Positions 2,360 to 58,152 of a DNA stretch of 64,000 bases are shown here, piece by piece. Where the stretch lies: positions 62,001-126,000 of the forward strand of contig JAHDVF020000424.1 of assembly GCA_022606425.2 (NCBI GenBank). The letters run 5' to 3'. The notes beneath the pieces are model-generated. The model was not told the origin of the DNA and ran no database searches. It saw nothing but the letters and a program-made list of their open reading frames with translations. The stretch comes from Lepidostoma basale (lineage: Eukaryota; Arthropoda; Insecta; Trichoptera; Lepidostomatidae). Numbering within the stretch: position 1 is the stretch's first letter; the number at the start of each line of letters is the position of its first letter. The translations under genes and the position numbers were made by a program.

Positions 2360-2405
2360 ATACCAAACATGTTTCGGACACACAAGCCCTTCATCAGTGA
2401 TATTA
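2360..2405 (-). ncRNA. Hammerhead ribozyme-like motif, type I, left arm
   Basis: On the minus strand the order is stem I 5' strand AATATCA, core CTGATGA, one extra A, stem II GGGC/GTCC with a G-T pair and a six-base loop, then GAAAC. A two-base AT loop and GT close a 2-bp stem III. T follows as the cleavage-site base, then stem I 3' strand TGGTATT. Stem I forms 7 pairs, one of them G-T. The invariant core (CUGANGA and GAAA) is intact. Self-cleavage is inferred. Confidence 0.72.
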
Positions 2406-2531
2406 TTATATTTAAATATTAAAATTTAAAATATTAATAAATTTTTCACAAATGTGGTCAGTTTCGACATATATTAAAATAAGATGAAATAAAACGATGT
2501 TTTTTAACTACTTCGACATTTGTCTTCCACG

Positions 2532-3254
2532 TTAATAGAGAAAAGTTGTGGGAAATATTGTCTGAATATGGAATAAGTACAAAACTGATCACGGCAATTA
2601 AGTCGCTATACACAGAAAGCACTGCTAGTGTCAGAGTAAATGGAGATCTTACAGCCTGGTTTGATATCAATAAAGGTGTCAAACAGGGTTGCGTAATGTC
2701 CCCGTGGTTATTTAATCTGTATATGGACAAATGTATGAAAGAGCTGAAAGGGTTGGATGTAGGTGCCAAAATGAGCGGAGTGTCAGTAAGCTGTCTCTTG
2801 TATGCGGATGACGCTGTCCTTTTTGCAGACAACGAGCATGAACTACAAGTCCTGGTGAATTGTATGTATGAGGTATGCTGCGAAATGATCTGATGATGAA
2901 TGTTAATAAGTCCAAGGTAATGATTTTTGAAAAGGAAGAAACCACGACAGTCTGCAACATTAGCGTAAATGGTGGAAATTTTGAGCAAGTAGTTGAGTTC
3001 GTGTATTTAGGTAGTATGTTTACAAGAGATGGGCGAGTGGAGAGGGATATTGAAAGAAGGGTTGGGGCAGGCAACAAAGTGAATGGTGCACTTAAAGTTG
3101 TCATCGCAAACAAAAACCTATCAAAAAAAGCTAGAATGACAGTGCACAATTGTGTTCTTCTACCGACCCTTATGTATGGAAGCGAAGCATGGAACTGGCA
3201 AAAGAAGGATGAAAGTAGAATAAATGCAGTTGAAATGAGATCTCTTAGAAGAAT
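2532..3254 (+). mobile_element. LINE-A (RTE-like), 5' part of a split copy
   Basis: This codes the reverse transcriptase palm and downstream region of an RTE-like LINE. INKGVKQGCVMSPWLFNLYM is followed by LLYADDAVLFAD, which holds the catalytic YADD. The first frame stops at 2893 and coding resumes in another frame from 2875 with VVEFVYLGSMFTRDGRVERD, LPTLMYGSEAWNWQKKDE and NAVEMRSLRR. The frameshift near 2875-2893 shows the copy is dead. Endonuclease and most of the reverse transcriptase N-terminus are missing. Coding halts at 3254 inside MRSLRR, and the remainder continues at 7733. Confidence 0.88.
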
Positions 3255-5114
3255 AAATATAATAATATAAATAAAAGGCAGTTTTGGTTGTGTGTGTGGA
3301 CTATTTCTGAGGTTATTCCTGAGCTGATCCTTTTGAAATTTGGAGAATGGACTAAGTGGAATTCAGCGGTCGTCATAGGCATATTTTTGTTATTAGTCGA
3401 GCTCTAATTAACTTTATAAATTAATCAATTAATTGAAAATTTTCGTAGTGCAAACGAATATAGACCTTAATGTTCGTATCACCTGAGTATCAATCTTTTG
3501 AGTCTATATTCGTTTGACATGGTCTGGAGAGAATTCAGTCTCCATGTAATTTTGTGTAGTGGCAACAATGTGTTTTTCATTCTGACAGTCCAATATATTG
3601 CGTTTTACTTTGGGATGTATAATACTTAATACGTTTTACTTATTACGTACTAAAATAATTGGTTGTTTAATTGGTACAGTCTATTTTATTGGCCATATTT
3701 TAATGTACATTAATGTAGACAGGTAATTATACTTCTTAATTTTGGCGAGTATAATTTTAACGCGTCATTTTGAGGTTATGAACGAAATTTTATTTTTTCG
3801 TGTGGCTGAAACTTATTCGTTTCTCTTACGTTCGACGGTGATTACTTAATGATATTCGTTTTCTAGAATTCTAGCCGTTCGATTGGTCACGTGGTCTCTG
3901 AACTGTCAAACTTTTTGTACGTCGTAATATTTTGTAGGTATGAAGTTTCGGTACTTTTAGCTTATGAAGTTTCTGGGATTAAAAGTAACGTCGAGGCTCT
4001 CTAAAAGAATGTGAAGAAACTTGCTTCCGTAAGTATAATATAATATTTATATTTCTAATTCATAAATATATTTTCAGTTTATTCTATTTTGCCGTTTTCT
4101 TTATACGCATACTTTCGTCAGGGAAATTGTTACATTACCACAGCAACGGTAAGAAAGTTCTAATGATATACAATATGAATTACAATATGAATGAATGACA
4201 CAATTCTTATGACTTTTTCCGTTTATTTCTAGGAAAATAAAGTAACAGATCAGAGATGGGACGAAAATTACCAATGCAGCGTGCAAAATAACTTCGTTAA
4301 AATGGAATTAGATCAGTCAAACAACGGATGATCAGTGAATTACATGTACCCTGGAGTGGCGAATGAGAACCGGCTCATTTTCACATTACACATAAGCTAT
4401 TTTTAGTAGTTTTCATTCATATATGAAAATTACATTATTAATTTCAGGTAAGGTTTTTAAATTTACAGTTTATAGACAATTGATTTATTCGTTTTACTAA
4501 CGTGTCATTTTAGGTTATGACGTTTAGTAGTGTAATAATTAGTTATTTAATTGGTATAATCTATTTTAATAATGTTATTTTAATGTAAAACTATTCTGGC
4601 AGGGCGAAAATCTATATCTTTGGGATAAGATATTAAGTTTTGATAAAATAATTCACTAGAGGAGCCTGGTGTGAGAGACCACTGGTCTAATGGGGATATT
4701 TTTGTATTGGGATTGAAATTATTTTGTTAATGAGCCATATTGGTGCATCTGCATGTTGCAATTCTACTTTCTTTTCCATTCCACTCCATTAAATTCTACA
4801 TTATGCTGAGATTTAAAATATTCAAAGATAATTAAATTGTTTTCAGGTTATTTCATTTGCTTAAGGATGGGGAAGACAACGCAGAAGATAATGGATTGCG
4901 CATGTGCAGAGGATGAGGAAAACAACGCAGAAGATACTGGAATGTGCATGTCCAGAGGATGATATCACAAGACATGTTGTTATCTTTATGAACTAATTTG
5001 GAATGGTATGTACAGGTTTACATTGGATTAATTGGTTTAATTTGTTACATAATAATATAGACAATTTATGTACCACTGGTCTGATAGGGGGGTGTTTGTT
5101 TTATGAAGTTTGGA
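3255..5114 (+). other. Upstream part of the insertion that splits LINE-A
   Basis: This is the left part of the 4478-bp insertion into LINE-A. I see no long open frame. It holds a perfect 15-bp inverted repeat (3451-3465 and 3502-3516). It also has direct repeats of an AATTGGT...TCTATTTTA segment (about 3660 and 4545) and of CCACTGGTCT (about 4678 and 5072). A stretch at 4868-4966 is repeated in tandem and recurs near 59320. It may be the 5' untranslated region of the L2-like element or a separate earlier insertion. Confidence 0.4.
3451..3516. repeat. Perfect 15-bp inverted repeat
   Basis: CAAACGAATATAGAC at 3451-3465 is matched by its exact reverse complement at 3502-3516, with a 36-base loop. 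Function is unknown. Confidence 0.7.
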
Positions 5115-7732
5115 TAGGCCATATAACCTAGGGATCTACGAGATCTATAAATTCGCGGCCAGCCTCTCTGAACATTGGATGATTGTTGGAGACATCAATA
5201 TCCGAATAGAGAGAACCTCATCGTCTAGTGATAAATTCCTAGACATGATGGAATGCTATGGGTCCAAGCAATGGGTTACCGAGCCAACACATACCGCAGG
5301 TGGATTACTGGATATCCTCATCTCCAACAAAAATGCTGTTAACACTCCGGCAAGTGTTATAGATATTGGACTCTCGGACCACAAAATGATTCGTACGGAG
5401 ATCCCTTTCCATCCACCACGACCCGTGTTTCAAACTTTCACTTCACGTACATGGCGCTCTTTCAATTTTGAAAAATTTGAAAGAGACTTGATGAACTCAC
5501 ATGTTTGTGAAAAATATAATAACAATACCCTCGAAATGTCATTAGATGAATTAGTTCAAACCTACTACAATGTTTTTACTTCTCTTCTCGACAAGCATGC
5601 TCCACATTCGACAAAAACACTCTGGGTGCGAGTGTCTAATGCATGGTTTGATGAAGAATGTCGTAGAAACAAGAGACTAATGCGTAGGTTTGAACGTATG
5701 TACCGAAACACAGGCCTAAGCTCTTCAAGAGAAGCCTGGGTGAGATCGCAGAATTCTTTTAGAGACCTGATCAAGAAGAAAAGATCGGAGTACTGGAAAT
5801 GTAAAATTGAATCGGAAAAGGAAAATCCCCGACATCTATGGAATTCCGTTAAATCAGTACTCGGAAATAATCAACAAGAAAAGGCCTCTACCAAGTTATC
5901 TCCTCAGGACTTCGCCCAATTCTTTGAAGATAAAATCGCTGTGATTCGTGCAACGACTTCATCTACAACACCACCAACTTTCACGACATATGAGGGAAAA
6001 CTTCTAACTAAATTTAATATCACAACACCTCAAGAAGTGATTAAACTTATCTTAAACGCACCTAATAAACAGTGTTCGCTTGATCCGATTCCGACATGGC
6101 TTCTCAAGAGATGCTGTCACCATGTTGCTCCATTTTTAGTCAAAATTTTTAACAAATCTCTTCTAACAGGACAAGTCCCTTTTTTGCTCAAGAAAGCTAT
6201 TGTTTCTCCCATATTAAAAAAACCTCAACTAGATTCCGAAAATCTTAGTAACTTCCGGCCCGTCTCAAATCTACCTTTCATCTCTAAAGTTCTTGAAAAA
6301 ATTGTAGCCTCCCAAATTTCTAATCACCTTTCGACAAATAATATTTTGTCTAAATTACAATCCGCCTACAGACGTTTCCATTCAACGGAGACGGGATTGC
6401 TTAGAGTCATGTCAGATTTAGTACTGGCAAACGAATCGGGCAAATTGGCACTGCTCTCCCTTCTGGACATGAGCGCTGCGTTTGACACAATTGATCACTC
6501 ATATCTTATCCAACGATTAGCGATCACGTATGGTTTTAGAGGTAATGCCATAGACTGGCTAAATTCATATCTGTCGGATCGTTCACAAGCTGTGCAGCTA
6601 GCAGGTAAAAAATCCTCATTTACTAATATCCAATCTGGTGTGCCACAAGGCTCTGTTTTAGGACCCTTTTTATTTATCATGTTTACAAATGACGTTGCCA
6701 AAATAATAGAATCCTTTGGCCTCCTCTCACATTGCTATGCTGATGATCAGCAACTTTATTTTTTCTGCAACCCTGATGACACCAAACATCTTACGTCAAC
6801 AACTGTCAACTGCATTGATGCCATATCCAGATGGATGGCATCAAACAAACTTAAACTAAATCCATCCAAAACGGAATTTCTCTGGACTTCATTCATTCCT
6901 CAATTTCAACAGCTGACAATGATATCGTTCCCAAAAACTCCACAAAGCTTCTTGGTGTTTATCTTGACGCAAATCTGTCTCTAAAATCCCAAATTAATAA
7001 CACGGTCAGCGCTAGTTTCTTCCACCTAAGACGATTAAAATCCGTCAAAAGGAGTATTCCCCACGACACTTTCAAAACTCTTGTAATTCCTTCGTTGTGT
7101 CACGACTTGATTATTGTAATGGAATTTATGCAAACATTCCAAAACAACAAATAAACAAACTTCAATCTGCGTTCAATGCAGCAGCAAGGCTCATTAAAGG
7201 CATTCCAAAAAAGTCCCATATAACATAACATCTCAAAGAACTTCACTGGCTTAAAAGTCCAGAAAGAATCCAGTATAAACTCTGCTGGACAGTCTTCAAA
7301 GCGCTACATGGAATGGCACCAAGTTATATATCTGAACTCTGTATAACGGACAGCCTAAATTCACGGAAATCCACACTTCGCTCGGCGAACTCTCAGCAAT
7401 AGGAAGATTAGTTGAGCCGAAGCGTTGCCCCAGTACAAATTTCGGGGATCGAGCGTTCGCGGTAGCCGGTCCATCAGCTTGGAACAATCTTCCTTCACAC
7501 CTTAGATGCATAAATGATCCGACAGATTTCAGATCTAAATTGAAAACACATCTTTTTCATATTTCATACCCAACTTAAACATTTATACTTTGTTCTACTA
7601 TACTTTCAAACCGATCGTTTTTTAAGCGGTCACATTTAGATTTTTAAGATTTAAAACACGTCTTAATGCGCCCTTGAGGTGATTACATCACAAAAACGGC
7701 GCTTTAAAAGTTAGCATATTATTATTATTATT
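5115..7732 (+). mobile_element. L2/CR1-type LINE, 5'-truncated, inserted in LINE-A
   Basis: A non-LTR retrotransposon of the L2/CR1 group. It begins inside the endonuclease domain and runs through the reverse transcriptase and the C-terminal region to a 3' untranslated region ending in ATT repeats (7718-7732). With upstream sequence it interrupts the LINE-A copy exactly between MRSLRR (3254) and MCGYSVYDR (7733). The only possible target duplication is 3 bp (AAT). Confidence 0.85.
5116..7560 (+). pseudogene. L2/CR1-like endonuclease-reverse transcriptase, frameshifted
   Basis: The open frame runs to 6984 (about 624 codons; no true ATG start, since it is truncated). Counting codons from 5110, the C-terminal part of the apurinic endonuclease comes first (MIVGDINIR near residue 25, GLSDHKMI near residue 90). 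Reverse transcriptase motifs follow: SNFRPVSNLP, SAYRRFHSTETGLL, FDTIDH (residue 458), GVPQGSVLGP (residue 510), YADD (residue 543) and LNPSKTE. A frameshift at about 6895-6915 moves coding to another frame, which continues with LLGVYLDANLSLKSQ. More shifts and stops precede SRLDYCN, LKELHWL, ERIQYKL and FGDRAFAVAGPSAWNNLPSHL, a typical L2/CR1 C-terminus. The intact palm motifs suggest a fairly recent copy, but the frameshifts make it non-functional. Confidence 0.87.
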
Positions 7733-8132: not shown

Positions 8133-8329
8133 TTTCACTTTTGTGAACACACATGACAAAAGTGGAAGTAGTTAAAAAAAAACATCGTTTTATTCAATTA
8201 TTATTTCAAATAAACTTCCATCAGGAGATTTCAGTAAAATAATTAGATGTTAAAATGATTTTAATATCTTTAAAAACTGACCTCATTAGTGAAATAAAAA
8301 AATAATATTTTTAATATTTATATTTATAT

Positions 8330-8376
8330 AATATCACTGATGAAGGGCTCGTGTGTCCGAAACATGTTTGGTATTT
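8330..8376 (+). ncRNA. Hammerhead ribozyme-like motif, type I, right arm
   Basis: This is one of the best motifs in the window. The core CTGATGA occupies 8337-8343, followed by an extra A at 8344. Stem II pairs 8345-8348 (GGGC) with 8355-8358 (GTCC, one G-T pair). GAAAC is at 8359-8363. A two-base loop (8364-8365) and GT (8366-8367) make a 2-bp stem III, and T8368 is the predicted cleavage-site base. Stem I pairs 8369-8375 with 8330-8336, 7 pairs including one G-T. All nominally invariant core bases are present. An extra base between A9 and stem II is known from a viroid hammerhead. It is the inverted partner of the motif at 2360-2405. Confidence 0.75.
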
Positions 8377-8669
8377 ATTAAAGCGAGTGTTGTATACTAA
8401 GTATAATACATAAAAAAGAAACATTAAACATCTACAACACAAAGTTATGGCGAATATGGAAGAAATTAATTAATACTCTTAAAAAATAAGTTGTTCTTTG
8501 GATCTTCAATATATCTGTGTCTTGTGATATTTCCCGAAACACATTTCACAGATCGTCGAAGACACCATATAAGAAGTAATAAATATCCCAAATCGAATTA
8601 TTTTAATATTGTAATTTGATAAAAAAAAGTTGTGCATTTTAATAAATAAGAGAAAGATGTTTTCTGAGG

Positions 8670-9525: not shown

Positions 9526-10430
9526 CTTCATTACGTTCTTAACTGATTGCTTAGAGCGCAAATGACAAAATTAAATCAAAATTCCATTAACAATTGTTGG
9601 ATATTTGTAATTACTGTGTTTTATGTTTTTATGGAATAATGCATTAAAAAAATGTTTTAACATATGGTGAAACTTGAATGTCTCTTTGCTACGATATGGA
9701 TATTTCGCCCTTGAAGGTAAACGGTTGTAATAAAATGTTTACTTTAAATAGGCCACCAACAGTTTTCTGAAAACATGCTATTCTTTTATTTTTTCCCTAA
9801 AAGTAAAAACTTTCAAGGGATTTATTTTTATTTCGGCCTTTTTTTATACAAGAAATCCATTGTCCAATTCCAATTACGCCTCTGGTTAATCCAGTTATAT
9901 CGCCCTGTAACGTGCAAATGTGTGCCATAACACCTGTATACATCGTAGGACGTGTAATGCTGGATGTGTACATATAGTGAACTTATTATAATAAGTGCCC
10001 TATGTCGCGCGACAAGGGAGTACTCGTTTGGCGAAGGGCGAACACGGATTTTTCATTTGCGACGTCATTAACGTTTCACGACGTAATTGGGCCTGGAAGC
10101 CGAACAACTGATTGGTGAAACATGACGTCGTTCGAAGGCTTCGGCTAGACTGTATTTGTTACCGCAAATTAGACGTGGCATTCCATCCATCATAAATTCA
10201 ATATCACGGAAAATATATCTCAGAAAATACAGATGGGAGCTAAGATATTCGTATTTTAATTTATGTAGAAATTTTGTTGGTTTGAGCGTTTGAGCGCAAA
10301 ATACCAAGAATATTATTTGGCCTAGTCCGCAAAGATAATCCATTATAATCCTGGAATATTGTTAAATTTGGTTAAAAAGTTTATAGTAAAAATTGAGGGA
10401 GTAAGGGGGATCCTATTGACTCTTCGAGCG
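9526..10430. other. Unassigned DNA
   Basis: No gene is recognised. A 91-codon minus-strand open frame (10068-10343) has no known motif and is probably chance. Confidence 0.35.
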
Positions 10431-14150: not shown

Positions 14151-14190
14151 ACACTCTATTTTGTTATATCGAACCAAGTTAATTTGTTTT

Positions 14191-14236
14191 CGTAACCTTG
14201 ACGAAGCTCCGGCGGGAGCGAAACCAGTTGGTTAGA
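14191..14236 (+). ncRNA. Hammerhead ribozyme-like motif, ACC-GT subfamily
   Basis: Stem I pairs TAACC (14193-14197) perfectly with GGTTA (14230-14234). The core reads TTGACGA at 14198-14204, so the first core base is T instead of C. An extra A follows (14205). Stem II pairs GCTCC (14206-14210) with GGAGC (14215-14219), five Watson-Crick pairs. GAAAC spans 14220-14224, with a two-base loop, GT, and T14229 as the cleavage-site base. The C3 change probably weakens or kills activity. The homologue at 39408-39452 has the intact core. Confidence 0.65.
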
Positions 14237-16059: not shown

Positions 16060-16290
16060 ATTTATTCTTAATATTTGTTATAATAAAAGCGTAAACGTTC
16101 CAAAATAAATCATTTTAAAATCTGTCAAAGCTGACCGCATTTGTAAAAAAAAAATATAATATTTTTATTATATTAATATTTATATTATATCACTGATAAA
16201 GGACTTGTGTGTCCGAAACATGTTTTTTTTAAATAGTGAGTGTTGTATACTAAAGTTATTAAAAAAGAAACCCAATAAATAGTTTCGCTT
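16060..16290 (+). repeat. Hammerhead element, single arm
   Basis: A solo right arm of the 2313-8470 type family: GTCAAAGCTGACC, then AT-rich sequence, the hammerhead motif at 16187-16232, and the AGTGTTGTATACTAAAG terminus. No left arm is recognised nearby. Confidence 0.65.
16187..16232 (+). ncRNA. Hammerhead-like motif, core base changed
   Basis: The core reads CTGATAA (G8 changed to A). Stem II is GGAC/GTCC with four perfect pairs, followed by GAAAC, AT loop, GT, T. Stem I is mostly lost. Probably inactive. Confidence 0.5.
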
Positions 16291-17363: not shown

Positions 17364-17997
17364 AAAATAATTATATAATACTATAATAATAATAAATTGG
17401 AGTATTTTTAAATCCCCTCTTCATGAAATATTCATCTCAAGAGAGCTATAATGTCTGTTTTAATTTTCAATCAAATTAGTTTTTATTTTGTAAACGATTA
17501 ATCAAGTAAACGTCATATTCAAATATTTGACCCAGTTGAAGAAAATCCAGCATCAACCTAAAGAGTATTGAATAACCATCAGATTCACTAATGTGAAAAA
17601 TGCATTAAAACTTGCGATGCTCCATCTTACTCAATATCTAAAACTCCACTCCAACTGTCAGGCGTCTTCGCGACTAAGTAATTAAATAACAGTTTTTCGC
17701 TTTGAAATGAGTTTTCCCCGATTGCATCTGGGGACGGATGCACCCCTAACAGTAATGCCGAGTACACGGAGACGGTACGTGTCTCAAGGTTGATCCACAC
17801 CCTCTTCGCGCGTATACGAGTATCGTAACCCTCAACTCTGAACTACGGCGAGACTCCTGCCAAGTTTACAATCTGTCTCTCCTCCGTCCCTGGCAATGAA
17901 CTTGATTGAAATACTCGATACCGTGTTTGTATAACTGACAAACGATTACTTTAAAAGATATTCACCGCTCGCTTTACTTTTCGAAATATTACTTTTA
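17364..17997. other. Unassigned DNA with a moderately GC-rich patch
   Basis: No coding region is recognised. 17700-17930 is clearly richer in G and C than its surroundings but shows no open frame or known motif. Confidence 0.35.
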
Positions 17998-18049
17998 AAA
18001 TTTATAACACCGTCATAATATCACGATTTATTTTTATTCACTGAGAGTG

Positions 18050-18100
18050 TCGCGACAGCTATTTCGCCAACCGACATTGGCATCATCAGGTGTTACAATA
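18050..18100 (-). ncRNA. Hammerhead ribozyme-like motif, AGCTGT subfamily
   Basis: On the minus strand the core is CTGATGA (complement of 18083-18089), with an extra T. Stem II is GCCAA/TTGGC, five perfect pairs around a six-base loop (18071-18076). Next come GAAA and T, then AGCT, GT and C as the cleavage-site base. Core bases are intact. Stem I is weak: GCG after the cleavage site does not pair well with the upstream AACAC. Activity is therefore uncertain. Confidence 0.55.
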
Positions 18101-18529
18101 AACTAAAGTAACAAATGAGAAGAATTACTATTTATAGGGCAAAAAACTCATAAATGTGGTTAGTCATAGTTAAAATTAAGTATGCGAAATCTGTTGACAA
18201 TTTTACAAACAAATATAACAAAGGTGGGAAAAAAACAGTGATTAGAAGAGACAATTATACATACAAGAAATGAAAGTGTATTGTTACAGTTAATATTAAT
18301 AAGGTGAAAAAACTACAAATATTATTATTATAAGCAAACACAATAAAAGTGGGAAACCCATTAATTGAATAGTTTGCTATGTTTACATATAGCAAACAAT
18401 TTTTAAAAATCTGAGAAATTGGAAAATTTTGAAATCTTGAAAATAAAAAAAATGTAAATTGAATGTTATACCACACTAATGAGTTTTATGCCCTATAAAT
18501 AGTAAGTCTTTTCATTTGTTACTTAAGTT

Positions 18530-18582
18530 CATTGTAACATTTGATGATGCCAACATGGGTTGGTGAAACAGCTATCGCGACA
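18530..18582 (+). ncRNA. Hammerhead-like motif, partner arm
   Basis: The core reads TTGATGA (first base changed). Stem II is GCCAA/TTGGT around CATGGG, then GAAAC, AGCT, AT, C. It is the inverted counterpart of the motif at 18050-18100, with a base change on the GT side of stem III. Confidence 0.5.
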
Positions 18583-18824
18583 TTCTCAGTGAATAAAAAT
18601 AAATTGTAATATTTTAACGGTGTTATAAATTTTAACAGTAATAATGTTGAAGTATTATAACATAGTGTTACGGCCTAAACAATGGACTATTTTCGAAATA
18701 TTTTGTATTTTTTAGTTACATTTTTATAATAATTTTTACGAATGAAAACAACTGTTTTCTAGAAGTTTAATTATAATTTAGTTGAATGGAGTGTTTCGCC
18801 TGTTTTACAAATTTTATATATTTT

Positions 18825-19322: not shown

Positions 19323-19861
19323 CAAGATGTATAATATATTAATTGAATTCGAAATATAAACAAACATATATCAAGTTATCGTTCGTACGTCAAAACCAGG
19401 AGAAAGTAAGTCTTTTTTTTGTAAATGTTTTCTTCATGTATATTTACGTGACGTGATTTTTGTCTAACTGTGTGATTTGTCAAGCGGAGAATCTAAAGCA
19501 TTATTTCCCAACATATGTGGTACCGCCCCCAGTGGGCGGTGTAGTCGTCCATGGGGGCGGTAGCGGGTCCAGATATAAATAGGGGGCGTTAAGACAGTCA
19601 ATTGGGGCGCCGTAGTGTAATTATATTATATAAGAAATTAATAATAAAATACTTTGAAAATACTTTTTTCACGAATGAACATTTTATATGTCTATCAATT
19701 ATTTTTTTAAATCTTATTGTCCATCTATGATTCATTGAGAAACATTTAAAAAATTGCATTCAGTATACGTACCTATATCTAATTTGGTTTAGTACTTTGA
19801 TACTACATTTGATAGTGGTTTAGCAAGGCGAAACATGTCATTTCCATCATATTATTTAACA

Positions 19862-20045
19862 TTATTAACTGTTAAAATTTGAACGCTGTTAGGGTATCAG
19901 AATTTTTTATTGTATTTTATTTTTCGAGACAGCTGTTTCGCCAACCGATGATGGTAACGAAACAGCTGTCACTAAAAGTAAAAAAATAATAAATAATTCG
20001 GATACCAAAACAGCGTTTAAATTTTAACAGTGAATAATGTTGAAG
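19862..20045. repeat. AGCTGT-type hammerhead hairpin, compact
   Basis: Inverted arms (TTAACTGTTAAAATTTGAAC and its complement near 20020) enclose two opposed GAAACAGCTGTC motifs at about 19937 and 19965. The centre keeps only CGATGATGG, so both ribozyme cores are truncated. It lies within the hAT element. Confidence 0.65.
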
Positions 20046-20130: not shown

Positions 20131-20222
20131 CAAATATCAAATGTTTAATCAAATGTTTTCATTCGACTTAATTATTTAATATTGAGTTTTATATCATTTT
20201 TCTTCTATATTCGCCATACTTT

Positions 20223-20765
20223 GTGTTGTAGATGCTTTATTTATCTTTTTATTTTTTATTTACTTTGTAAATACAACACTTACATTAATTTTTTTTTTTA
20301 ATTACATAGACATATTTCGGACAACTAGTCCTTCTTCATTGATACATATTATAACTAACTAACTAACTAACTAATCATCACGCAGTCTCCCCGAAAGGGT
20401 AGGCAGAAAGAATGGACTGTCACACTTTAACCGATGCGGCACTCTTCTGCAGCATCCTTCTCTTTTCGCCCCGCGGGAGACGCGGTGTGATGGGTTGCGA
20501 AATTCATCGCCACCAATAGCATCTCCCGTAATAAAGATACATATTTAAAATATTATAGAATTGTTTACATGATCTGACAGATGTTATAAAGAGTTATCTT
20601 TATAACATCTGTCAGATCATGTTAACAATTTTATAATATTTTAAATATGTATCTTTATAATATGTATCACTAAAGAAGGACTGGTTGTCCGAAACATGTC
20701 TATGTAATTTTAAAAAAATAATGTAAGTGTTGTTTATATATACAAAGTATATAAAAAAGAAAGAG
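20223..20765. repeat. Hammerhead foldback (GTCC type) with SINE-A in its left arm
   Basis: Left arm 20223-20352 plus 20534-20594, right arm 20597-20765, inverted copies meeting near 20595. They share TACATAGACATATTTCGGAC, GTATCTTTATAA and ATCTGTCAGATCATGT. The left arm is interrupted at 20353-20533 by SINE-A. Hammerhead-like motifs lie at 20308-20350 (minus; core lost C and G) and 20660-20712 (plus; CTAAAGA, GGAC/GTCC stem, GAAAC). Confidence 0.8.
20353..20533 (-). mobile_element. SINE-A: non-autonomous element with LINE-A 3' tail
   Basis: Read on the minus strand, a non-LINE head includes GAAATTTCGCAACCCATCAC and GTCTCCCGCGGGGCGAAAAG. It is followed by the last ~65 bp of LINE-A (CATTCTTTCTGCCTACCC, then the GTGATGATTAG tail in TTAG repeats). 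Sharing the 3' end of an autonomous LINE is the usual way SINEs borrow its reverse transcriptase. A second full copy is at 58153-58320 and a head-only copy at 39268-39340. Confidence 0.75.
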
Positions 20766-21229
20766 ATTTTTTTTCTCATTGTTCAAGAAACAATAAATAA
20801 GTAATTAGAGAAGCCTTCCTTGTACCTAAAGGGGGCGGTGGTCCGGAAAAGTTTGGAAACCGTATGATCTAAAAGGAAAACAACAAAATAAAACCTTTAA
20901 TACGAGCTACTATAAAAGGAAAAATTGTCTTAAAATCGTTTGGTCGTGCATTCCGTTCTAGGAAAGGAAAAGGATATATTGTGAAATGTGCTTATTTTCC
21001 TTAGGGTAACAAAGGAATCACACTTCGTTCGCTGAAGTCGGGCGGGTATGAGTTCAATGTCATGGAAGCATTAAAAGTATTGGACCGTTTCTGGACTGTA
21101 TTGTGGGGTGTCAGTGACTTCCATTTGGGTTCTGTGTCCATTATCACAGATGTCAAAACTAACGTTGCTGCGGCGGCAGACAAATGATTCCACTGAGAAA
21201 CGCCACACAAATTATACGCGGCCAGCCGG
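20766..21229. other. Unassigned DNA after the foldback
   Basis: Beyond the hAT end at 20866, no gene is recognised. An 87-codon minus-strand frame (21001-21264) has no known motif. Confidence 0.35.
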
Positions 21230-22045
21230 CACACACTGGATCCATTTGGCAAAAACATGGACATAGGGGTCGAACTTCGAATTTTGCCTGATTTTTTAAA
21301 TTAGGTCCTCTGTGTGATTCCAACCCACTTTTGTATTTTAACTTTTTTTATATAACTGCTAATTTCCAAGAAAAAATATGTTGTTGTTTTTTTTGTATGA
21401 AGCAAAACTGATTTTTTCAATTAGTTCGGTATCATGTGGATACGTCAAAACCAAACTTAGAAGGGATTACAGAGAGCATAATCTTCTACATTACTAGTTC
21501 CAAAATCTACTTCATATCTCTTCCCGTTTAAAACAGCAGACATTATAAATCTTAATTAATTGTTACGAGTGGTTTCGGATGTTTTGGTAGATGCATAAAT
21601 GATTATCGCATTCCTTTATAATAGAATGGAGTGATTTTAGCATAATTGCGATCATTTATGCATCTAACAAAAAATCTGAAACTACTTAATACTCGTAACA
21701 ATTAATTAAGATGTATAATGTCTGCTGCTTTTAAACGGGTAGAGATATGAAGTAGATGTCGTAACAAGTAATGTAGAAGATTGTGCTTTCTATAATCTTT
21801 ACTAAGTTTGGTTTTGACGTATCCACCTGATTCCAAAATAATTGCAAAAATCAGTTTTGCTTCATACAAAAAAACAACAACATTTTTTTCTTGAAAATTG
21901 GCAGTTATATTAAAAAAAGTTAAAATACAAAAGTGGGTTAGAATCACACAGAGGACCTAATTTTAAAAAATCAGGGCGAAATTCGGAGTTCGACGCCTAT
22001 GTCCAGTGGATCCAAAGTGGACCAAATGGATCCAGTGTGCGGCAA
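21230..22045. repeat. Large palindromic foldback element, about 815 bp
   Basis: Two ~385-bp arms are inverted copies around a centre near 21620. Outer ends read GGCACACACTGGATCC (left) and GGATCCAGTGTGCGGC (right). Inner segments include CCTCTGTGTGATTC, TTTGTATGAAGCAAAACTGA, ATACGTCAAAACCAAACTTAG, TTAATTAATTGTTACGAGT and GATGCATAAATGAT with their complements. Arms differ by scattered substitutions and small indels. There is no coding capacity and no hammerhead core. It is a MITE or foldback of unknown family. Confidence 0.8.
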
Positions 22046-24840: not shown

Positions 24841-25179
24841 TGTTTTTATTTATAATCAAATGAGATTCTCAACCAGGAAATGCGTAAAAAAAAGATAAAA
24901 AATAATATCATTAAACAATTGAAATAATGATTATTCTAAGTGCTCTTCTCGGTATAAGTTTCTCTGAATAATCTCCGTTGATCGTTTCAAGCAATTATCT
25001 AAAATGTTTTGGTTAACATTAAGCTTGAAACACTCACAATTATTCATCTACCGCCCACCACTACAATAAATTGCGGAAAGATTCCCCATCGAAAGATAAT
25101 AAAAGACAAATAAATATACTCAATGTGTGAGATAGAAAAATATACCGATATAAGTTAGTACCTACTTTTGTTTCTTCTA
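24841..25179. other. Unassigned DNA
   Basis: No gene or known repeat is recognised. Confidence 0.35.
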
Positions 25180-25660
25180 TATACGCCATACTTTGTGTCG
25201 TTATGATGCTTTATTTCTCTTTTTATTTTTTATATACTTTGTACAACACTTATCTTCAAAAAATAAAATTACATAGACATGTTTCGGACAACCAGTCCTT
25301 CAATGATACATATTATAAAGATACATTTTAAAAATATTATATAATTGTTTACATGATCTAACAGATGGTATAAAGATTTATTTTGGAATAATAAATAAAT
25401 ATTTTGTAAGTTATTATAATGATTAAAAATAAACATTAAAAAAAAATGATAATAAATATTTCGGAATAATGATAAATTCCAAAATATATCTACATAACAT
25501 CTGTCAGATCATGTAAACAATTCTATAACCTTTTTTAAATGTATCTTAATAATATGTATCACTGATAGTCGTCCGAAACATGTCTTTGTAATTTTTTTTT
25601 TTAATAAAAGTGTTGTATATACAAAGCATATAAAAATGAAAAAGAGAAATAAACCTACTT
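25180..25660. repeat. Hammerhead foldback (GTCC type), both arms
   Basis: Inverted arms (about 25180-25385 and 25490-25660) share TACATAGACATGTTTCGGAC, ATACATATTATAAAGATAC and ATCTGTCAGATCATGTAAAC. Motifs at 25270-25312 (minus) and 25548-25592 (plus) keep GTCCGAAACATGTC. Each has a small deletion that removes part of the CTGANGA core or stem II. Confidence 0.75.
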
Positions 25661-26521
25661 TCATCTTTAAATTGTATATAGACCATGTTTATTTTTTCAA
25701 AAATATCTGTTTTTCAGACAGTATTTTTGTATTTGCAGAGAAAAATGCTACACACTAAAGTTCACAATATTTCAGTATTTTAACAGCCATATAGAGGCAC
25801 GAAATACTTTTGTAGATACCAGTATTCGTACAATACAGTGACAGTCTGTAATATTTTTGTATATACGCAACGTGAGTTCACGATAACCTGCTTCATATTT
25901 AGAACATTATTTAGTATTAAATTTCTGTCAACGCTATTAATAAATATCATTATTAACGTTATTAATTTATTATATTTTATGGAAATGTCATTTATTTATT
26001 TATTTATTTGAGGGTAACAAACAGCAACTAAGTATATATATTATATAAAAATACACAAAGAAGTACTCAAATAAGGTCAATTGCATGTTACCACAAATAT
26101 AAATGAATGAACAGAGTTAACATTATAGACTTATGAAACGAGATTTAAGTCAACTAAAATCAAGATAAAAGTAACTAAGGTTATAGTATAAATATTAACA
26201 AAAAGATAATAATAATAATACAAGTAAATGAATATAACATTATAACACTATACACACCGAAAAGTTGATGCAACAAATTTTTTTTAAATCATAAGCGTTT
26301 AGGTGAAAAACATCGATTGCATTATAACATTTGTTATAAATATCGCATATCCGGTACATTGCCGCGCTCTGAGTGTAATTTGTGTGATAAGCAGTATCCA
26401 CTGTATGTATCCCCTTTTTTAAGGCCTTATCAAATTTAGACTTATGATATTTGATATTTTGCAATAACATTTCATAACGTCTTAGCATCGCGAAACATGT
26501 CTTCGATAATTATTATAAAAC
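25661..26521. other. Unassigned AT-rich DNA
   Basis: No gene is recognised. TTTATTTATTTATTT occurs near 25992. A remnant GCGAAACATGTC at 26490-26501 belongs to the hammerhead-element group. Confidence 0.35.
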
Positions 26522-35162: not shown

Positions 35163-35186
35163 AGATTGGCCAATTATTAATATGTA

Positions 35187-35480
35187 TGAAAAAACGATAG
35201 TTTTCAAGGAGTTTTATTATAATATTTATATACGACATGTTTCGCCCTTCTCAGGCATTATCACATATGATAATGTCTTAGATGGGCAAAACATGTCATA
35301 CATAAATATTATAATAAAACTCCTTGAAAACTTTCGTTTTTCATACATATTGATAATTTAATATGGAGTTTTACATCATTGTTCAAGAAACAATTAATAA
35401 ATATTTAAATAATGTATTTTCATACATATTAATAATTTAATATGGAGTTTAACATCATTGTTCAAGAAACATTAAATAAG
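35187..35480. repeat. Foldback with GCC..GGC hammerhead-like motifs
   Basis: Inverted arms (GTTTTCAAGGAGTTTTATTATAATATTTATA and complement, 35190-35350; written here in parts: GTTTTCAAGGAGTTTTAT, ATAATATTTATA). They enclose motifs at 35228-35256 (minus, GATAATGCCTGAGAAGGGCG then AAACATGTC) and 35265-35312 (plus, GATAATG...GGGCAAAACATGTC). The core reads TGATAA instead of CTGANGA, so activity is doubtful. The element continues with ATGGAGTTTTACATCATTG and TTCAAGAAACAAT, a tail seen at many sites. Confidence 0.65.
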
Positions 35481-36069: not shown

Positions 36070-36260
36070 CGAGAAAAATATTTTAATTATTCTGAAGAAA
36101 CATAACATCTCTCAAAACTGATCATATTTGTAAACAATTTTATAATATTTTAAAAACGTATCTTTATAATATCACTGAGGAAGGATCGGTTGTCCGAAAC
36201 ATGTCATAATATTTTTTTTTAAAGTTAGTGTTGTATATACAAAGTAAATAAAAAAGAAAA
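36070..36260 (+). repeat. Hammerhead element, single arm
   Basis: A right arm of the GTCC type: AACTGATCATATTTGTAAAC, the motif at 36166-36215, then AGTTAGTGTTGTATATACAA. No partner arm lies nearby. Confidence 0.65.
36166..36215 (+). ncRNA. Hammerhead ribozyme-like motif with intact core
   Basis: The core is CTGAGGA at 36175-36181 (N7 is G, allowed), with an extra A at 36182. Stem II pairs GGAT (36183-36186) with GTCC (36192-36195), including T-G. GAAAC is at 36196-36200, then AT loop, GT, and C36205 as the cleavage-site base. Stem I pairs TAATATT (36207-36213) with the AATATCA side if A36206 is bulged, with one A-C mismatch. Confidence 0.6.
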
Positions 36261-38385: not shown

Positions 38386-38520
38386 TTTGATAATGCCTTA
38401 TCAAGGCAAAACATGTTGTTCTCATAAAATAAAACTAGAACAAGACCGATTTTTTCATATGTATTATTATTAATTATGAAAATATACATAATTGTTCATG
38501 AAACGATAAATATTCGGTGT
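38378..38520 (+). repeat. GCC..GGC hammerhead-like element, single arm
   Basis: TTTGATAATGCCTTATCAAG then GCAAAACATGTTG: stem II GCCTT/AAGGC is perfect, but the core is TGATAA and GAAAC is AAAAC. It is followed by the TTGTTCATGAAACGATAAAT tail of this family. Confidence 0.5.
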
Positions 38521-39374: not shown

Positions 39375-39545
39375 AAATTTGCATTTACACCACTTTATTC
39401 GTTTCAACAACCAACCGGTTTCGCTCCCACCGGAGCTTCATCAGCGTTATAAAAGAGACTGTAACGGTGTTTTTTGTAACCTTGACTTTTTCGCCATGGT
39501 AAGACATTATCAAATATATCGAAACATATCATTCACATAAATTAA
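39375..39545 (-). repeat. ACCGGT-type hammerhead element
   Basis: AT-rich flank, the motif at 39408-39452, and a degraded GCC-type motif at about 39485-39530 (CGCCATGGTAAGACATTATC). It shares the TTTACACCACTTTATTCG terminus with the element near 14150-14280 in inverse order. Confidence 0.55.
39408..39452 (-). ncRNA. Hammerhead ribozyme-like motif, ACCGGT subfamily, intact core
   Basis: On the minus strand the core is CTGATGA (complement of 39438-39444) with an extra A (39437). Stem II is GCTCC/GGAGC (39432-39436 with 39423-39427), five perfect pairs around a four-base loop. GAAAC follows, then a CG loop, GT, and T (39413) as the cleavage-site base. Stem I pairs GGTTG with TAACG, four pairs with the first position mismatched. 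The homologue at 14191-14236 keeps that first pair but has lost the first core base, so the shared ancestor was plausibly a complete hammerhead. Confidence 0.72.
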
Positions 39546-40067: not shown

Positions 40068-40122
40068 TATATTAACACTTCATGATGAAGGTCACCTCCG
40101 AAACATGTGGTGTTTTTATTTT
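40068..40122 (+). ncRNA. Hammerhead-like motif, GGTC type
   Basis: AACACTTCATGATGAAGGTC then ACCTCCGAAACATGTGGTGT. ATGATGA replaces CTGATGA, stem II is short (GG/CC), then GAAAC and the ACATGT palindrome. The base after GT is G, which is normally not cleavable. AACAC pairs with GTGTT as an outer stem I. Probably a decayed copy. Confidence 0.45.
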
Positions 40123-44989: not shown

Positions 44990-45595
44990 TAACAACATTT
45001 ATATAAAATCATGACTATAAGTAACCTAGATAAAAATATAGAAATTGTTTATTATTATTCTGGCAATGTAAACACGCTATTGGGCGTCAGAAAGCAAGAG
45101 GTTAACGACGTTAATGATGCCCTAATGCTCCTAGTAAAAGCCAAAGCGGAGGTAAGGCTTCCTAAGGCAGGATAATAAATATCTTTTCAAGTAATGGAAC
45201 AGGAAAGAGTTGTAAGGCCCGAGGTGAGGCCTGGACCGTTCTGGTAATCACTGATTCTTTAGACGCCAGATATGGGTCAAGGTGAATACGATAACCGGAG
45301 CCATGATGTATTTTCTATTCAGCTTTCGTCAGCCAATGGCCACATAAAATATGTCTCGAACAGTATCGAACTTCTATATGGCATGGTAAGATTATCTTGC
45401 GCTGCAAAAATATGTTTTTGGGATGGATGTTTTTGATACTCGGTCGAGCACAAACGAGAGTGATGTGTTATTATTTTTTTTTTCATAAAATATTTCAATA
45501 ATTTCTCGTGTATCTGAAATACTGACTAATCAATTTAAAGCAATTTAAAATTCGAACCCAAACTGTTTGTAAAAATAAATCCTTTTTATTTATTT
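44990..45595. other. Unassigned DNA
   Basis: No gene or known repeat is recognised. Confidence 0.3.
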
Positions 45596-45696
45596 TTTAC
45601 TATATCATCGTAACTTTGTGTTGCGGATTCATTGAATAAGTTTTTTAGACTTTGTATACAACACAAACTTTATTATAAAAAAAAATAATTAAAAAA

Positions 45697-45742
45697 ACAA
45701 ACATGTTTTGGACACAGAAGCCCTTCATCAGTGTTATAAATA
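45697..45742 (-). ncRNA. Hammerhead-like motif, one core change
   Basis: Core CTGATGA (complement of 45725-45731), extra A, stem II GGGC/GTCC, then AAAAC instead of GAAAC, AT loop, GT, T. Stem I AACA/TGTT has four pairs. The G12 to A change should inactivate it. Confidence 0.55.
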
Positions 45743-46085
45743 TATATATTTTTCTAATTTCATGAATGTGGTCAGTTTTGACCGATATTAAAATGATTTT
45801 TTTTCGAACGTATAAAAGTTCGAAAAAAATCTTTCTTTATTTTTACAAACATTTTGGGATTGAATTTTATATTGCTTTGATTTGATTAGTCAGTATTGCA
45901 GATATACGAGAAATGCATAGAATTGCAATTATGCATGAGCATTTGTTATAAACAAACATTTTTAGTAAATCTTAAATAATAAATGTTATAACAAATGCAT
46001 AAACGTTCGAAAAAAAAATATTTCAACCTAAATATCTATCAGTAATACTCGTATCTCTTAAAACTGACCAAACAATTTGTTAAAA

Positions 46086-46138
46086 TATTTATAACACTGA
46101 TAAAGGGCTTCTATGTCCGAAACATGTTTTGTTTTTAA
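46086..46138 (+). ncRNA. Hammerhead-like motif, partner arm
   Basis: Core CTGATAA, extra A, stem II GGGC/GTCC, GAAAC, AT, GT, T. It has GAAAC where its partner has lost it, and has lost G8 where its partner keeps it. The two arms complement each other's core losses. Confidence 0.55.
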
Positions 46139-46365
46139 TTATATTTTTTAAATAATGTTCATGTAGTATACAAAGTTTAAAAATCAGTATTCCTTTTATT
46201 TACATTATTATTAAAAACGTTTTGTTTCCTAGAAATTTTTAAAATTTTGTTAAAAAATATAACATATTAAAAACTTATTTGACTTAATCTGTCAATATTA
46301 ACAATGAAAATCAAACAAGTCTTTAAATAAAATATTTACTTTAACGCCATGTGTTATTCTCATTT

Positions 46366-47617: not shown

Positions 47618-48005
47618 TTCTGCTGTTGCGGCACTCCATCCTTGCCAAATACAATGATATATAATAAAATAACAAAATAAAAATAACATAACGCAAAATG
47701 TAATTGTTTATATTCACATAATATAATATAATTTTAGACAAATTTAAGGCGTTAACACTATCGTTCTCCCGATGATGAAGGTCTTCGAAACATGTCGAGA
47801 AAAATAAACTTAAAAGTGGAAAAAACAGTGTTTTAATTCATAAAAAATCGTATAATATAATTGTTTTCGTTGGTGCACATGTAGTCAGCTGGAAGATCCG
47901 GACTTTTAATTTAATTTAATTTAATTTATTATTTTCTGTATTAACCGGTTTTTTTAATTGACCTGATTAGGCACTTAAAACAATTCAACTCTAGCAAGAA
48001 CTACA
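47618..48005 (+). repeat. Hammerhead-element family copy, TTCTCCCG type
   Basis: It begins with a GCGGCACTCCATCC stub shared with SINE-A. ACAAAATAAAAATAACAT and the motif at 47762-47806 follow, then GGAAGATCCGGACTTTT, AGGCACTTAA and CAAGAACTAC. The last segments also occur at 58330-58620. Confidence 0.55.
47762..47806 (+). ncRNA. Hammerhead-like motif, TTCTC/GAGAA stem I
   Basis: TTCTC (47764-47768) pairs with GAGAA after the GTC cleavage-site trinucleotide. The core is CGATGATGA, stem II is a short GAAG/CTTC hairpin, then GAAAC, AT, GT, C. Stem II merges with the core, so folding is uncertain. Confidence 0.45.
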
Positions 48006-50621: not shown

Positions 50622-51390
50622 TAGTTCGTGTATTAAGGTAGTATGTTTACAAGAGATGAGCGAGTGGAGGGTATTGAAAGAAGAGTTGGGGCAGGCAACA
50701 AAGTGAATGGTGCACTTAAAGTTGTCATCGCAAACAAAAACCTATCAAAAATATCTAGAATGGCAGTGCACAATGGTGTTCTTCTACCGACCCTTATGTA
50801 TGAAAGCGAAGCATGGAACTGGCAAAAGAAGGATGAAAGTAGAATTAATGCAGTAGAAATGAGATCTCTTAGACGAATGTGTCGATACTCTGTGTATGAT
50901 AGAGTGCCGAATGAAAATATAAGATGTGAATGCGGTGCGAATGATGGTGTTATGAACAATATAATGAAAGGATCATTAAGATGGTTTGGATATATGCAAA
51001 GTATGAATTAAGAAAGAATGGTAAAAAATATATATATATTAACGATGTAAATGGAACAAGAAATATTGGTAGACTGGGGAAAACGTGGCACGGTCAAATA
51101 AATCAAATATTGAATGTCGGCCATGTGAGGAGTCAGAGAAATCGACGCGCGTGCATCAAATAAATCAAATATTGAATGTCGGCCATGTGAGGAGTCAGAG
51201 AAATCGACGCGCGTGCATTACACGATGTATGAATGTTTTTTTTGTGGAAGCCAGCCATTTATTGATGAATGATATGTGTGACAATCTATCGCCATCGAAA
51301 GACCAAAGTGTGGCGACGGGGAATCCATTCGGTGTGGCAGTCTTCTTTCTGCCTATGCCTTCGGGGACACGGCGTGATGGTTAGTTAGTT
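50622..51390 (+). mobile_element. LINE-A copy with a perfect 62-bp tandem duplication
   Basis: A 122-codon frame (50643-51011) reads MFTRDERVEGIERRVGAG, LPTLMYESEAWNWQKKDE, CRYSVYDR and MKGSLRWFGYM. Downstream frames carry GKTWHGQINQILNVGHVR. The 62-bp segment 51095-51156 is repeated exactly at 51157-51218. About 51265-51345 contains a scrambled SINE1 piece (GTGTGACAATCTATCGCCAT, GACGGGGAATCC). The copy ends GTGATGGTTAGTTAGTTA. Confidence 0.85.
51095..51218 (+). repeat. 62-bp perfect tandem duplication
   Basis: Two identical 62-bp units (each starting CAAATAAATCAAATATTGAA and ending GCGCGTGCAT) cover the NQILNVGHVRSQRNRRA codons. Identity implies a recent event in an old LINE copy. Confidence 0.9.
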
Positions 51391-52679: not shown

Positions 52680-52960
52680 TTGGCCGAAACACTATGATAC
52701 TTCAAAATTTTAAGTTAAGTTAAGTTTTTAAACACTATTTTAATGATATCACAATTTATAATAATTACTTTTATTTTTCGCAATTGCTATTTTGTATTCC
52801 TATGTTGACATCATCAAGTGTTAAAATTATTATGTCGATTTGAATAATTACATTTTAATGATCTTAAAAACTTAACAGTTGAATAAAATATTGTTACACC
52901 TGATGATGCAACATAAGTTGACGAAACAGCTGTATTATTGTTTTTTTAAGGCATTTCATT
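52680..52960. repeat. AGCTGT-type hammerhead foldback
   Basis: It starts with the family end (GTTCATTGTTTTGGCCGAAA). It has opposed cores: TTGACATCATCAAG at 52804-52817 (complement of CTTGATGATGTCAA) and CACCTGATGATGCAAC at 52897-52912. It continues to GAAACAGCTGTATTATTG. Confidence 0.65.
52890..52940 (+). ncRNA. Hammerhead ribozyme-like motif, AGCTGT subfamily
   Basis: Core CTGATGA at 52900-52906, extra T. Stem II pairs CAAC (52909-52912) with GTTG (52917-52920), and G52908 with C52922 past a bulged A. GAAAC is at 52923-52927, the ACAGCTGT palindrome at 52926-52933, and A52934 is the cleavage-site base. Core intact. Stem I is not convincing, so activity is uncertain. Confidence 0.5.
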
Positions 52961-53545: not shown

Positions 53546-53547
53546 CT

Positions 53548-55899: not shown

Positions 55900-55904
55900 T
55901 ACAT

Positions 55905-56050
55905 ATCAGACATGTTTTGGAAAACCGGTCCTTCTTCAGTGATACGTATTATATATAAATATGCATATTTGTAATAACAAAAGCATAAACGTTCCAAATT
56001 AAATCTTTATAACATCTGTCAACATTGATCATATTTGTAAACAATTTTAG
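55905..56050 (-). repeat. Hammerhead element arm abutting pogo 2 and a LINE-A copy
   Basis: A GTCC-type left arm: CAGACATGTTTTGGAAAACC, TCCTTCTTCAGTGATACG, ATCTGTCAACATTGATCAT. The minus-strand motif at 55905-55950 has core CTGAAGA (N7 A, allowed), extra A, GGAC/TTCC stem, but AAAAC instead of GAAAC. LINE-A follows directly at 56045. Confidence 0.6.
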
Positions 56051-57140: not shown

Positions 57141-57144
57141 CAAA

Positions 57145-57555
57145 AGAAGTATGAAAGTAGAATAAATACAGTAGAAATGAGATCTCTTAGACGAATGTGT
57201 CGATACTCTGTGTATGATAGAGAGTGTCGAACGAAAATACAAGAAGTGAATGCGGTGCGAATGATGGTATTAAGAACAAAATAATAAAAGGATCATTAAG
57301 ATTGTTTGGACATATGGAAAGAACGAATAAAGAAAGAATGGTAAAAAAAATATATGTTAACGATGTAAATGGAAACAGAAATAGAGGAAGACCGAGGAAA
57401 ACGTGGCACGATCAAAAAAATCAAATATTTAATATCGGCCACGTGATGAGTCAGTCTTGAGGAATCGAGAGAAATATGTCAGGAAAGAAAGGTATGGCAG
57501 TCCATTATTTCTGCCTACCCCTTTGGGAAGACGGCGTGATGGTTAGTTAGTTTTA
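57145..57555 (+). mobile_element. LINE-A 3' fragment
   Basis: It codes NTVEMRSLRRMCRYSVYDR, SNENTRSECGANDG, KGSLRLFGHMERTNKERMVK and NRGRPRKTWHDQKNQ, with a deletion of the RRACM segment. It ends GTGATGGTTAGTTAG. Confidence 0.85.
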
Positions 57556-57960
57556 CATTACTGCATAATAAAAAAAACAGTTTGTTAGAAATTTAGTAAA
57601 AGCAAAAAAAAAGTTCTCTGCAGTAAACTAACGGTTAAAGCGGTTACGTAATACAACATGTGTGGTAAATAAAGTGTCTCTTTAAATCCTAAATGCACCT
57701 CGCGGTCCCCTAGCTGTCTCGCAGTTAGTGCGGCGAGGCTGCCCCGTATTTGGGGCGCGCCCTTGACCCCGCTAGTGGGGCAGTCTCCCTACACGGCACT
57801 TAAACTGCACGTTGCATACGTTACACTGTTGTAGAAGCCATTAAAGTTCCCATTCGTGCATACAATCAAAGCTGAACTTTCCACGTCGGGTAATATGTAA
57901 TATCAATAGGTCAACTTATGCTTTACACAATAGAATGTTTTAATTTTAATAAAATGTCAT
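57556..57960. other. Unassigned DNA with a GC-rich patch
   Basis: 57690-57800 is GC-rich, with a short inverted pair (CCCCGCTAGTGGGG). Nothing is recognised. Confidence 0.3.
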
Positions 57961-57964
57961 TTAA

Positions 57965-58152
57965 TGTTTCTTTTTTATATACTTTGTATACAACACTCAC
58001 ATTTTAAACTGTTAAATTAAATAACTTTGTTTTATGTATCACGATTTATTTTATTTTACGCGACAGCTGTTTCGTCAACGTATGCTGACATCATTAGGTG
58101 TTACAATATTCTGTCGCGTAAAATAAAATAAATTGTTATACATAAAACAAAA
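57965..58152. repeat. AGCTGT-type hammerhead element split by SINE-A
   Basis: AACTTTGTTTTATGTATCAC, CGCGACAGCTGTTTCGTCAA, TGACATCATTAGGTGTTACA, then a reverse copy of the outer flank (GTCGCGTAAAATAAAATAAA). The minus-strand motif (58070-58120) has core CTAATGA, stem II GTCA/TGAC, GAAAC, AGCTGT, C. The core has one change. Confidence 0.65.

Follow-up and report, generated by a model that had tools for sequence, protein, structure and literature searches.

Hammerhead-like motifs in a 64-kb stretch of the Lepidostoma basale genome as probable terminal repeats of Penelope-like elements

What kind of element carries a dense series of hammerhead-like motifs through a single stretch of the genome of the trichopteran Lepidostoma basale, and do these motifs have the make-up of hammerhead ribozymes? 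The stretch (hereafter the window) comprises 64,000 nt (assembly GCA_022606425.2, contig JAHDVF020000424.1, positions 62,001 to 126,000 of the forward strand), is AT-rich, with 33% GC and 0 N by base counts, and is rich in remnants of non-LTR retrotransposons. An initial annotation had reported type I hammerhead modules at more than twenty places in it. In our judgement, the motifs are probably the pseudo-long terminal repeats (pLTRs) of several families of Penelope-like elements (PLEs), present mostly as very short, 5'-truncated copies, in which a minimal type I hammerhead lies upstream of a probable start codon.

The module has a constant order: CTGANGA is followed by a single extra base, stem-loop II and GAA, after which come a palindrome of 6 or 8 bases and a strand complementary to the upstream flank. 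The exact pattern CTGANGA(8–24 nt)GAAAC occurs five times in the window, at 8337+, 36175+, 52900+, 39444- and 2397-; a sixth locus named by the initial annotation, 18089-, reads CTGATGA..GAAATAGCTGT, with GAAAT replacing GAAAC. A descriptor that scores the core, the stems and the cleavage base, with 12 dinucleotide shuffles as controls, found nine loci at a score of at least 17, as compared with one in total across all the shuffles, and 23 loci at a score of at least 14, as compared with 3–10 in each shuffle. A second scan, blind to the stems, which required the core with at most one mismatch as well as an exact palindrome, returned 15 rows representing 14 loci, among which 16888- appears to be a chance match; 60 shuffles gave 1.33 on average and never more than 6. 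The occurrence of hammerhead-like modules across the window is thus borne out by enrichment over shuffled DNA in both scans. The count of "more than twenty" holds only with decayed loci included, since 91 pattern rows were reduced by hand to 36 motif positions, many of them degenerate, and 18 loci were parsed. Five sequence-distinct subfamilies carry the module (F1, Z, Q, Y and X), and a further one, G, is more decayed; as many loci are copies of the one repeat family F1, the locus counts are not independent.

The core (C3 U4 G5 A6 G8 A9, G12 A13 A14, U16.1, H17) is fully kept in six of the 18 parsed loci and changed in the other 12, and the six are exactly those listed as intact by the initial annotation (2360, 8330, 18050, 36166, 39408 and 52890). 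As full hammerheads, only half of these stand: 2397-, 8337+ and 39444- keep stem I (6/6, 6/6 and 5/6 pairs, respectively) as well as stem II, whereas stem I is weak in 18089- (3/6) and lost in 36175+ (1/6), and stem II is poor in 52900+ (2/4 pairs in a parse made by hand). Core and both stems are therefore retained together in only three loci, decay is heavy among the parsed copies, and, with 12 of 18 cores changed, the description of the family as "active" does not hold. Stem III is a 6- or 8-base palindrome (ACATGT, ACCGGT or ACAGCTGT) without a proper loop, and no closed loop was found at this position. A single base is parsed between A9 and stem II in all 18 loci, being A in F1 and Z and T elsewhere; in the stem-blind scan, leaving out the extra base gave the best stem II score, or one at least as good, at 55939 and 52900. 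A viroid hammerhead with an extra core nucleotide is known, to judge from the title of a reference in PMC6155905. As a separate observation, the G core at 38408+ (about 38385–38420) reads TTGATAA, in which the joint change of C3 to T and G8 to A would preserve the 3–8 pair; other G copies differ.

Across the 18 loci and six subfamilies, the stem strands match their own partners better than the strands of other subfamilies, with means of 3.83 against 2.58 of six pairs in stem I, and 3.78 against 1.81 of four pairs in stem II; for each stem, counting the true pairing, 2 of the 720 partner permutations did as well, a within-locus result that is biased upward since the parsed loci were partly picked by a score that includes pairing. 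Stem I reads, for example, ATCA/TGGT in 8337+, AACA/TGTT in 45731- and TCTC/GAGA in 47769+, and stem II reads GGAC/GTCC in some copies as opposed to GCTCC/GGAGC in others. The stem-blind scan offers a less biased check, as its loci were selected without regard to stems: all four stem II pairs are present in 9 of its 15 rows as compared with 2 of 80 pooled shuffle candidates, and at least four of five stem I pairs in 7 of 15 rows as compared with 4 of 80. Among 11 F1 and Z loci, 80.3% of the cells are paired (72.4% in shuffles, 0/500 as high; stem I cells alone, 63.4%), five pairs are changed on both sides (6/500 shuffles as high), and covariation, at 0.239, exceeds that in shuffles (0.119) and with slid partners (up to 0.130). 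Stem II and an open stem I with compensatory change are thus present, with stem I weak or lost in several copies, and the type I order, the extra base and the compensatory stems of the initial annotation are all supported by the core parsing, the pairing tests and the shuffles.

A covariance model of our own, built from the 11 F1 and Z loci, recovers those loci by construction; beyond them, it found two further F1 copies, 25270- (44.8 bits) and 25554+ (22.6 bits, E 0.0027), as well as Y (19.7 bits, E 0.017), X (17.3 bits, E 0.076) and G (E 0.76), whereas Q is absent from its matches up to E 5. A sequence-only model found the same F1 and Z loci, together with Y (11.2 bits, E 0.019) and X (12.6 bits, E 0.0074); since structure brings more bits but no better E-values, the covariance model is not counted as independent proof. 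Homodimer co-folding of seven loci predicts a double hammerhead for 2397- only; the predicted 18089- homodimer keeps stem II and has a different trans helix, the other five loci form long duplexes, and in monomer folds the core is often taken up by a short helix. Catalysis is a prediction, and retention of the hammerhead in copies does not demonstrate a present-day function.

The arrangement of the copies bears most directly on the nature of the element. The F1 motifs are embedded in matching stretches of up to about 170 nt, and at E 1e-6 one or more repeat partners within the window were recorded for 27 of the 36 motif positions. Among these 36 positions, whose subfamily membership is our own assignment, neighbours of the same subfamily within 700 bp form seven pairs, and all seven run minus then plus, with their 5' ends inward. 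BLAST supports inverted homology in six of them, all six head to head (1 in 4096 under random orientation), and does not support it in the weak pair 46375/46705. More motifs lie in self-inverted stretches at 14.2, 29.4, 34.3, 50.4 and 58.1 kb, and five lone F1 copies (2375-, 8359+, 16215+, 36196+ and 55918-) have no inverted partner nearby. Among the head-to-head pairs, the tail ACAACACAAAGTATGGCGAATATAGAAGAAA was scored in the three of F1, to the exclusion of the pairs at 19.9, 35.2 and 46.4 kb. It is found on the left arm only (3/3), with 0/31 mismatches at 20.5 kb, 2 at 25 kb and 9, hence diverged, at 45.9 kb, and no match within 9 mismatches on the other arms; behind the single copy 8359+ it recurs with 9 mismatches. 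Of the two arms of the 18-kb pair, the right one has the longer 3' end. Judged by eye, the junctions vary among pairs. Target duplications, assessed in nine pairs (those at 29.4, 46.4 and 58.1 kb not being among them) against random window pairs with windows set by eye, are plausible in four and not in five; random comparisons were as good as the outer repeats in 0/988 cases at 45.9 kb, 27/997 at 25 kb, 39/989 at 18 kb and 84/988 at 20.5 kb, and the last of these pairs sits inside a G-family 3' end that resumes on both sides.

Some side observations concern the same units. The segment 20531–20658, which lies between the two motifs of the 20.5-kb pair and is palindromic at 94%, is apparently the junction of that pair. 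At 57998- and 58073-, a Q-type unit passes directly into an F1-type 3' end, so that 3' ends may swap between subfamilies or the units may be nested. The G-family 3' end is tandemly duplicated at 35338–35400 and 35417–35479, and has relatives (0–9 mismatches in 36) at 20765, 29561-, 38478, 40248, 46604 and 53053.

This architecture points to Penelope-like elements, one of the ribozyme-bearing retroelements that the initial annotation had put forward, and its placing of the motifs in such a family is thereby supported. Penelope pLTRs are described as about 200 bp long, mostly inverted head to head with palindromes at the junctions, and as containing the first codons, with an optional 31-bp tail on one inverted pLTR and target duplications of 8–10 bp in some copies only (PMC3846280). 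The Adineta vaga Penelope elements of that account share with the present pairs the inverted head-to-head pLTRs, the palindromic junction, the tail on one arm and, as candidates in some of the present pairs, short target duplications, but the pairs in the window have no recognised open reading frame (ORF) between or beside the pLTRs. Minimal type I hammerheads are likewise reported from PLE pLTRs, with thousands dispersed in metazoan genomes and some of these mapped to pLTRs (PMC7761336). The window loci resemble them in type I order, in lacking a true helix III and in their dispersal as copies through an animal genome, and dimeric action has been proposed for the published ones (Cervera and de la Pena 2014; Lunse et al. 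2017, as cited in PMC7761336); here, by contrast, five or six subfamilies occur in 64 kb with no attached ORF. The extra base after A9, parsed in 18 of 18 loci, may be a further difference from the published minimal hammerheads. The figures given for one coral imply more than about 4,000 minimal motifs by subtraction (over 6000 less up to 1508 canonical; PMC7229834), and a palindromic stem III permitting dimers is described for several hammerheads, Aedes being the drawn example (PMC3088659).

A functional parallel is PAc, the Poseidon element of Anolis carolinensis, whose protein is reported to cut and extend both strands in vitro from two adjacent internal start sites; in its RNA, the ORF begins at stem II and the hammerhead cut lies 26 bp beyond the start codon (PMC11167929). 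In the window, the span from A9 to H17 is 26 nt in seven of the 11 F1 and Z loci and 25 nt in four, if the ATG is assumed to begin at A9. The likeness extends to a hammerhead near the probable ORF start, a similar distance to the cut and, as proposed for the window copies, internal initiation and the extension of both strands, although PAc is expressed, arranged in tandem and equipped with an ORF, and only remnants are seen in the window. The PAc hammerhead cleaved only with the protein present, and hammerhead mutants still inserted in vitro (PMC11167929).

Several findings weigh against the assignment to Penelope-like elements, besides the selection of the parsed loci mentioned above. A tblastn search of the window with 120 PLE proteins at E up to 0.01 recovered only one 16-residue remnant (Table 1) and no Penelope ORF beside any motif, and, with 2 of the 120 queries listed with a GIY-YIG domain, the search for the endonuclease is thin. 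In a more sensitive search, 109 alignment rows start within 5100–5199 at E up to 5; the matches added at that setting, 2608–2835 (E 0.004) and 10087–10278 (E 0.008), were judged to be chance. A search of external DNA for a PLE ORF together with the motif gave 11 pattern stretches in viral_contigs and another 20 in genome_contigs, without a confirmed case. For nine of the 36 motif positions, the repeat comparison within the window yielded no partner at E 1e-6. With regard to target duplications, the score at 45.9 kb takes in bases of the right arm, the repeats are unconvincing at 35.2 kb (384/994), 19.9 kb (760/995) and 50.4 kb (265/994), and those at 34.3 kb (34/993) and 14.2 kb (31/989) lie away from the element ends. 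Head-to-head copies have been put down to self-priming on an antisense template, not to two-strand priming (PMC3846280). Finally, no hammerhead-like locus reaches the Rfam gathering score: the whole window gave no hammerhead at E up to 5, and of two loci run singly, 8318–8392 gave none and 39395–39465 gave only Hammerhead_HH9 (10.3 bits, E 4.3; gathering score 52). The initial annotation had proposed this very check and had held that background scores would speak against it, and background scores are what was found. We do not take them as a refutation, because the hammerheads of PLEs are published as minimal variants without helix III (PMC7761336, PMC6155905), a feature that would explain weak scores.

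Other sources of the motifs are considerably less probable. Non-autonomous metazoan retrozymes, repeats of 150–450 bp with type I hammerheads that spread via circular RNA, share with the window loci a type I hammerhead within short AT-rich repeats (PMC7229834), and would also fit the F1 matches of about 170 nt and a unit without an ORF. Nevertheless, the published ones are tandem and carry canonical hammerheads (PMC7229834), whereas no motif here lies in a unit repeated directly within 900 bp (E 1e-6), tandem units of 150–450 bp included, helix III forms no hairpin, and inverted pairs with a one-sided tail suit pLTRs better; a retrozyme origin is therefore unlikely, and a satellite origin, which the initial annotation had also raised, is rejected on the same direct-repeat result. 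A similarly slim chance is given to the proposal that the ORF-less head-to-head pairs represent a miniature, non-autonomous derivative of Penelope that is mobilised in trans, and whose palindromic two-hammerhead unit, with the extra core base as a rule, would be the minimal substrate for two-strand priming. Slightly more doubtful still is that the pairs are foldback DNA transposons or resemble miniature inverted-repeat transposable elements, with the motif in the inverted repeats by happenstance; many copies are indeed inverted repeats, some with outer repeats, but five F1 copies are single, the junctions vary, the arms of F1 pairs end at different points, and the pairing is retained across subfamilies. 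Chance or low-complexity resemblance in AT-rich repeats, or conserved sequence without RNA function, is very improbable despite the Rfam background and the equal recovery of F1 and Z loci by the sequence-only model, given the shuffle controls, the matching of stem partners within and not between subfamilies, and the rarity of the pattern CTGATGAAGN{6,16}CGAAACATGT, which occurs in two stretches of a viral collection, both the same coding-like DNA, and twice, by reading, in the window. The two viral loci, which score at best 14.2 bits (E 0.16) with our own covariance model, were rejected as hammerhead relatives on account of that shared coding-like stretch.

On the favoured assignment to Penelope-like elements, reverse transcription would begin internally, 3' of the motif, the tail of about 30 nt being included or not, and would soon halt, and both target strands would be primed, so that many insertions would consist of two inverted pLTRs joined at their 5' ends. 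Two-strand priming is preferred to self-priming since the end points of the two arms may differ within a pair. Copies would retain the hammerhead because the reverse transcriptase presumably starts 3' of the motif, and the retention of the hammerhead by most insertions would account for the density of motifs. If the elements were active in the past, and stood in tandem, the hammerhead would cleave multimeric transcripts after H17, probably through two copies paired via the palindromic stem III, or aided by the protein of the element; its original role was most likely the processing of transcripts of tandem elements.

Table 1. Coordinates of the motif loci, head-to-head pairs and the coding remnant in the window.
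Position	Strand	Feature	Basis
2360..2405	-	F1 motif, full core, stems I and II paired, homodimer predicted as double hammerhead	core scans, parse, co-fold
8329..8374	+	F1 motif, full core; monomer minimum free energy fold with stems I, II and a 3-bp helix across the core	core scans, parse, co-fold
14190..14235	+	Z motif, C3 to T	descriptor, parse
16185..16230	+	F1 motif, G8 to A, stem I decayed	descriptor, parse
18046..18097	-	Q motif (8-base stem III), full core; left arm of 18-kb pair	descriptor, parse
18533..18584	+	Q motif, C3 to T, partner of 18089-	descriptor, parse
20303..20347	-	F1 motif, C3 to A; left arm of 20.5-kb pair	parse
20662..20706	+	F1 motif, G5 to A; right arm of 20.5-kb pair	parse
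25270..25311	-	F1 motif with deletion; left arm of 25-kb pair; outside model set	own covariance model
25554..25590	+	F1 motif with deletion; right arm of 25-kb pair; outside model set	own covariance model
36167..36211	+	F1 motif, full core, stem I lost	exact pattern, parse
39407..39452	-	Z motif (ACCGGT), full core, stem II 5 bp	core scans, parse, Rfam run
40070..40116	+	X motif, degenerate, G at cleavage position	descriptor, parse, own covariance model
45694..45739	-	F1 motif, G12 to A; left arm of 45.9-kb pair	descriptor, parse
46089..46134	+	F1 motif, G8 to A; right arm of 45.9-kb pair	descriptor, parse
47764..47802	+	Y motif, U4 to C, stem I TCTC/GAGA	descriptor, parse, own covariance model
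52892..52942	+	Q motif, full core, poor stem II	exact pattern, parse by hand
55903..55947	-	F1 motif, stem I 6/6, G12 to A	descriptor, parse
58054..58105	-	Q motif, G5 to A, within 126-nt inverted repeat	descriptor, inverted-repeat scan, parse
17978..18700	.	18-kb Q head-to-head pair, candidate target duplication 17978–17988 / 18690–18700	
19855..20044	.	Q head-to-head pair, 81% palindrome, junction within motif	
20187..20784	.	20.5-kb F1 head-to-head pair, left-arm-only tail, junction palindrome 20531–20658	
25161..25661	.	25-kb F1 head-to-head pair, left-arm-only tail, candidate target duplication CCTACTTT (25161–25168 / 25654–25661)	
35172..35358	.	G head-to-head pair, 89% palindrome, both motifs degenerate	
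45579..46202	.	45.9-kb F1 head-to-head pair, diverged left-arm-only tail, candidate target duplication 45579–45592 / 46189–46202	
5085..5132	-	Probable Penelope-like reverse transcriptase remnant (PRLYGLSKLHKTNTPL), 16 residues, not beside a motif	tblastn, best E 0.005

The window also holds repeats of other kinds. A long reverse transcriptase ORF of a non-LTR retrotransposon, related to PF00078, occupies 5107–6984 (best match 45% over the whole query), and at 51094–51218 a 62-nt piece that apparently belongs to a non-LTR element is perfectly duplicated in tandem. The stretch 21232–22039 is self-inverted over about 800 nt (84% between arms), has no hammerhead motif and is probably a foldback element; 21550–21711 matches a plant microRNA model at 35.3 bits, under the gathering score of 117. 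A tRNA-like segment at 26698–26769, below the Rfam threshold, and its six relatives form a seven-copy family, probably heads of tRNA-derived short interspersed nuclear elements.

The window is a dense example of a known phenomenon, and is expected in kind. As late as 2020, a review described the role of the hammerheads of PLEs as a mystery (PMC7761336). A genome with many short insertions from several families, in which 3' ends, junctions and hammerheads can all be read, would offer a test, from sequence alone, of whether the 5' ends fall at the hammerhead cut, and would also let two-strand priming be weighed against self-priming in the same way.

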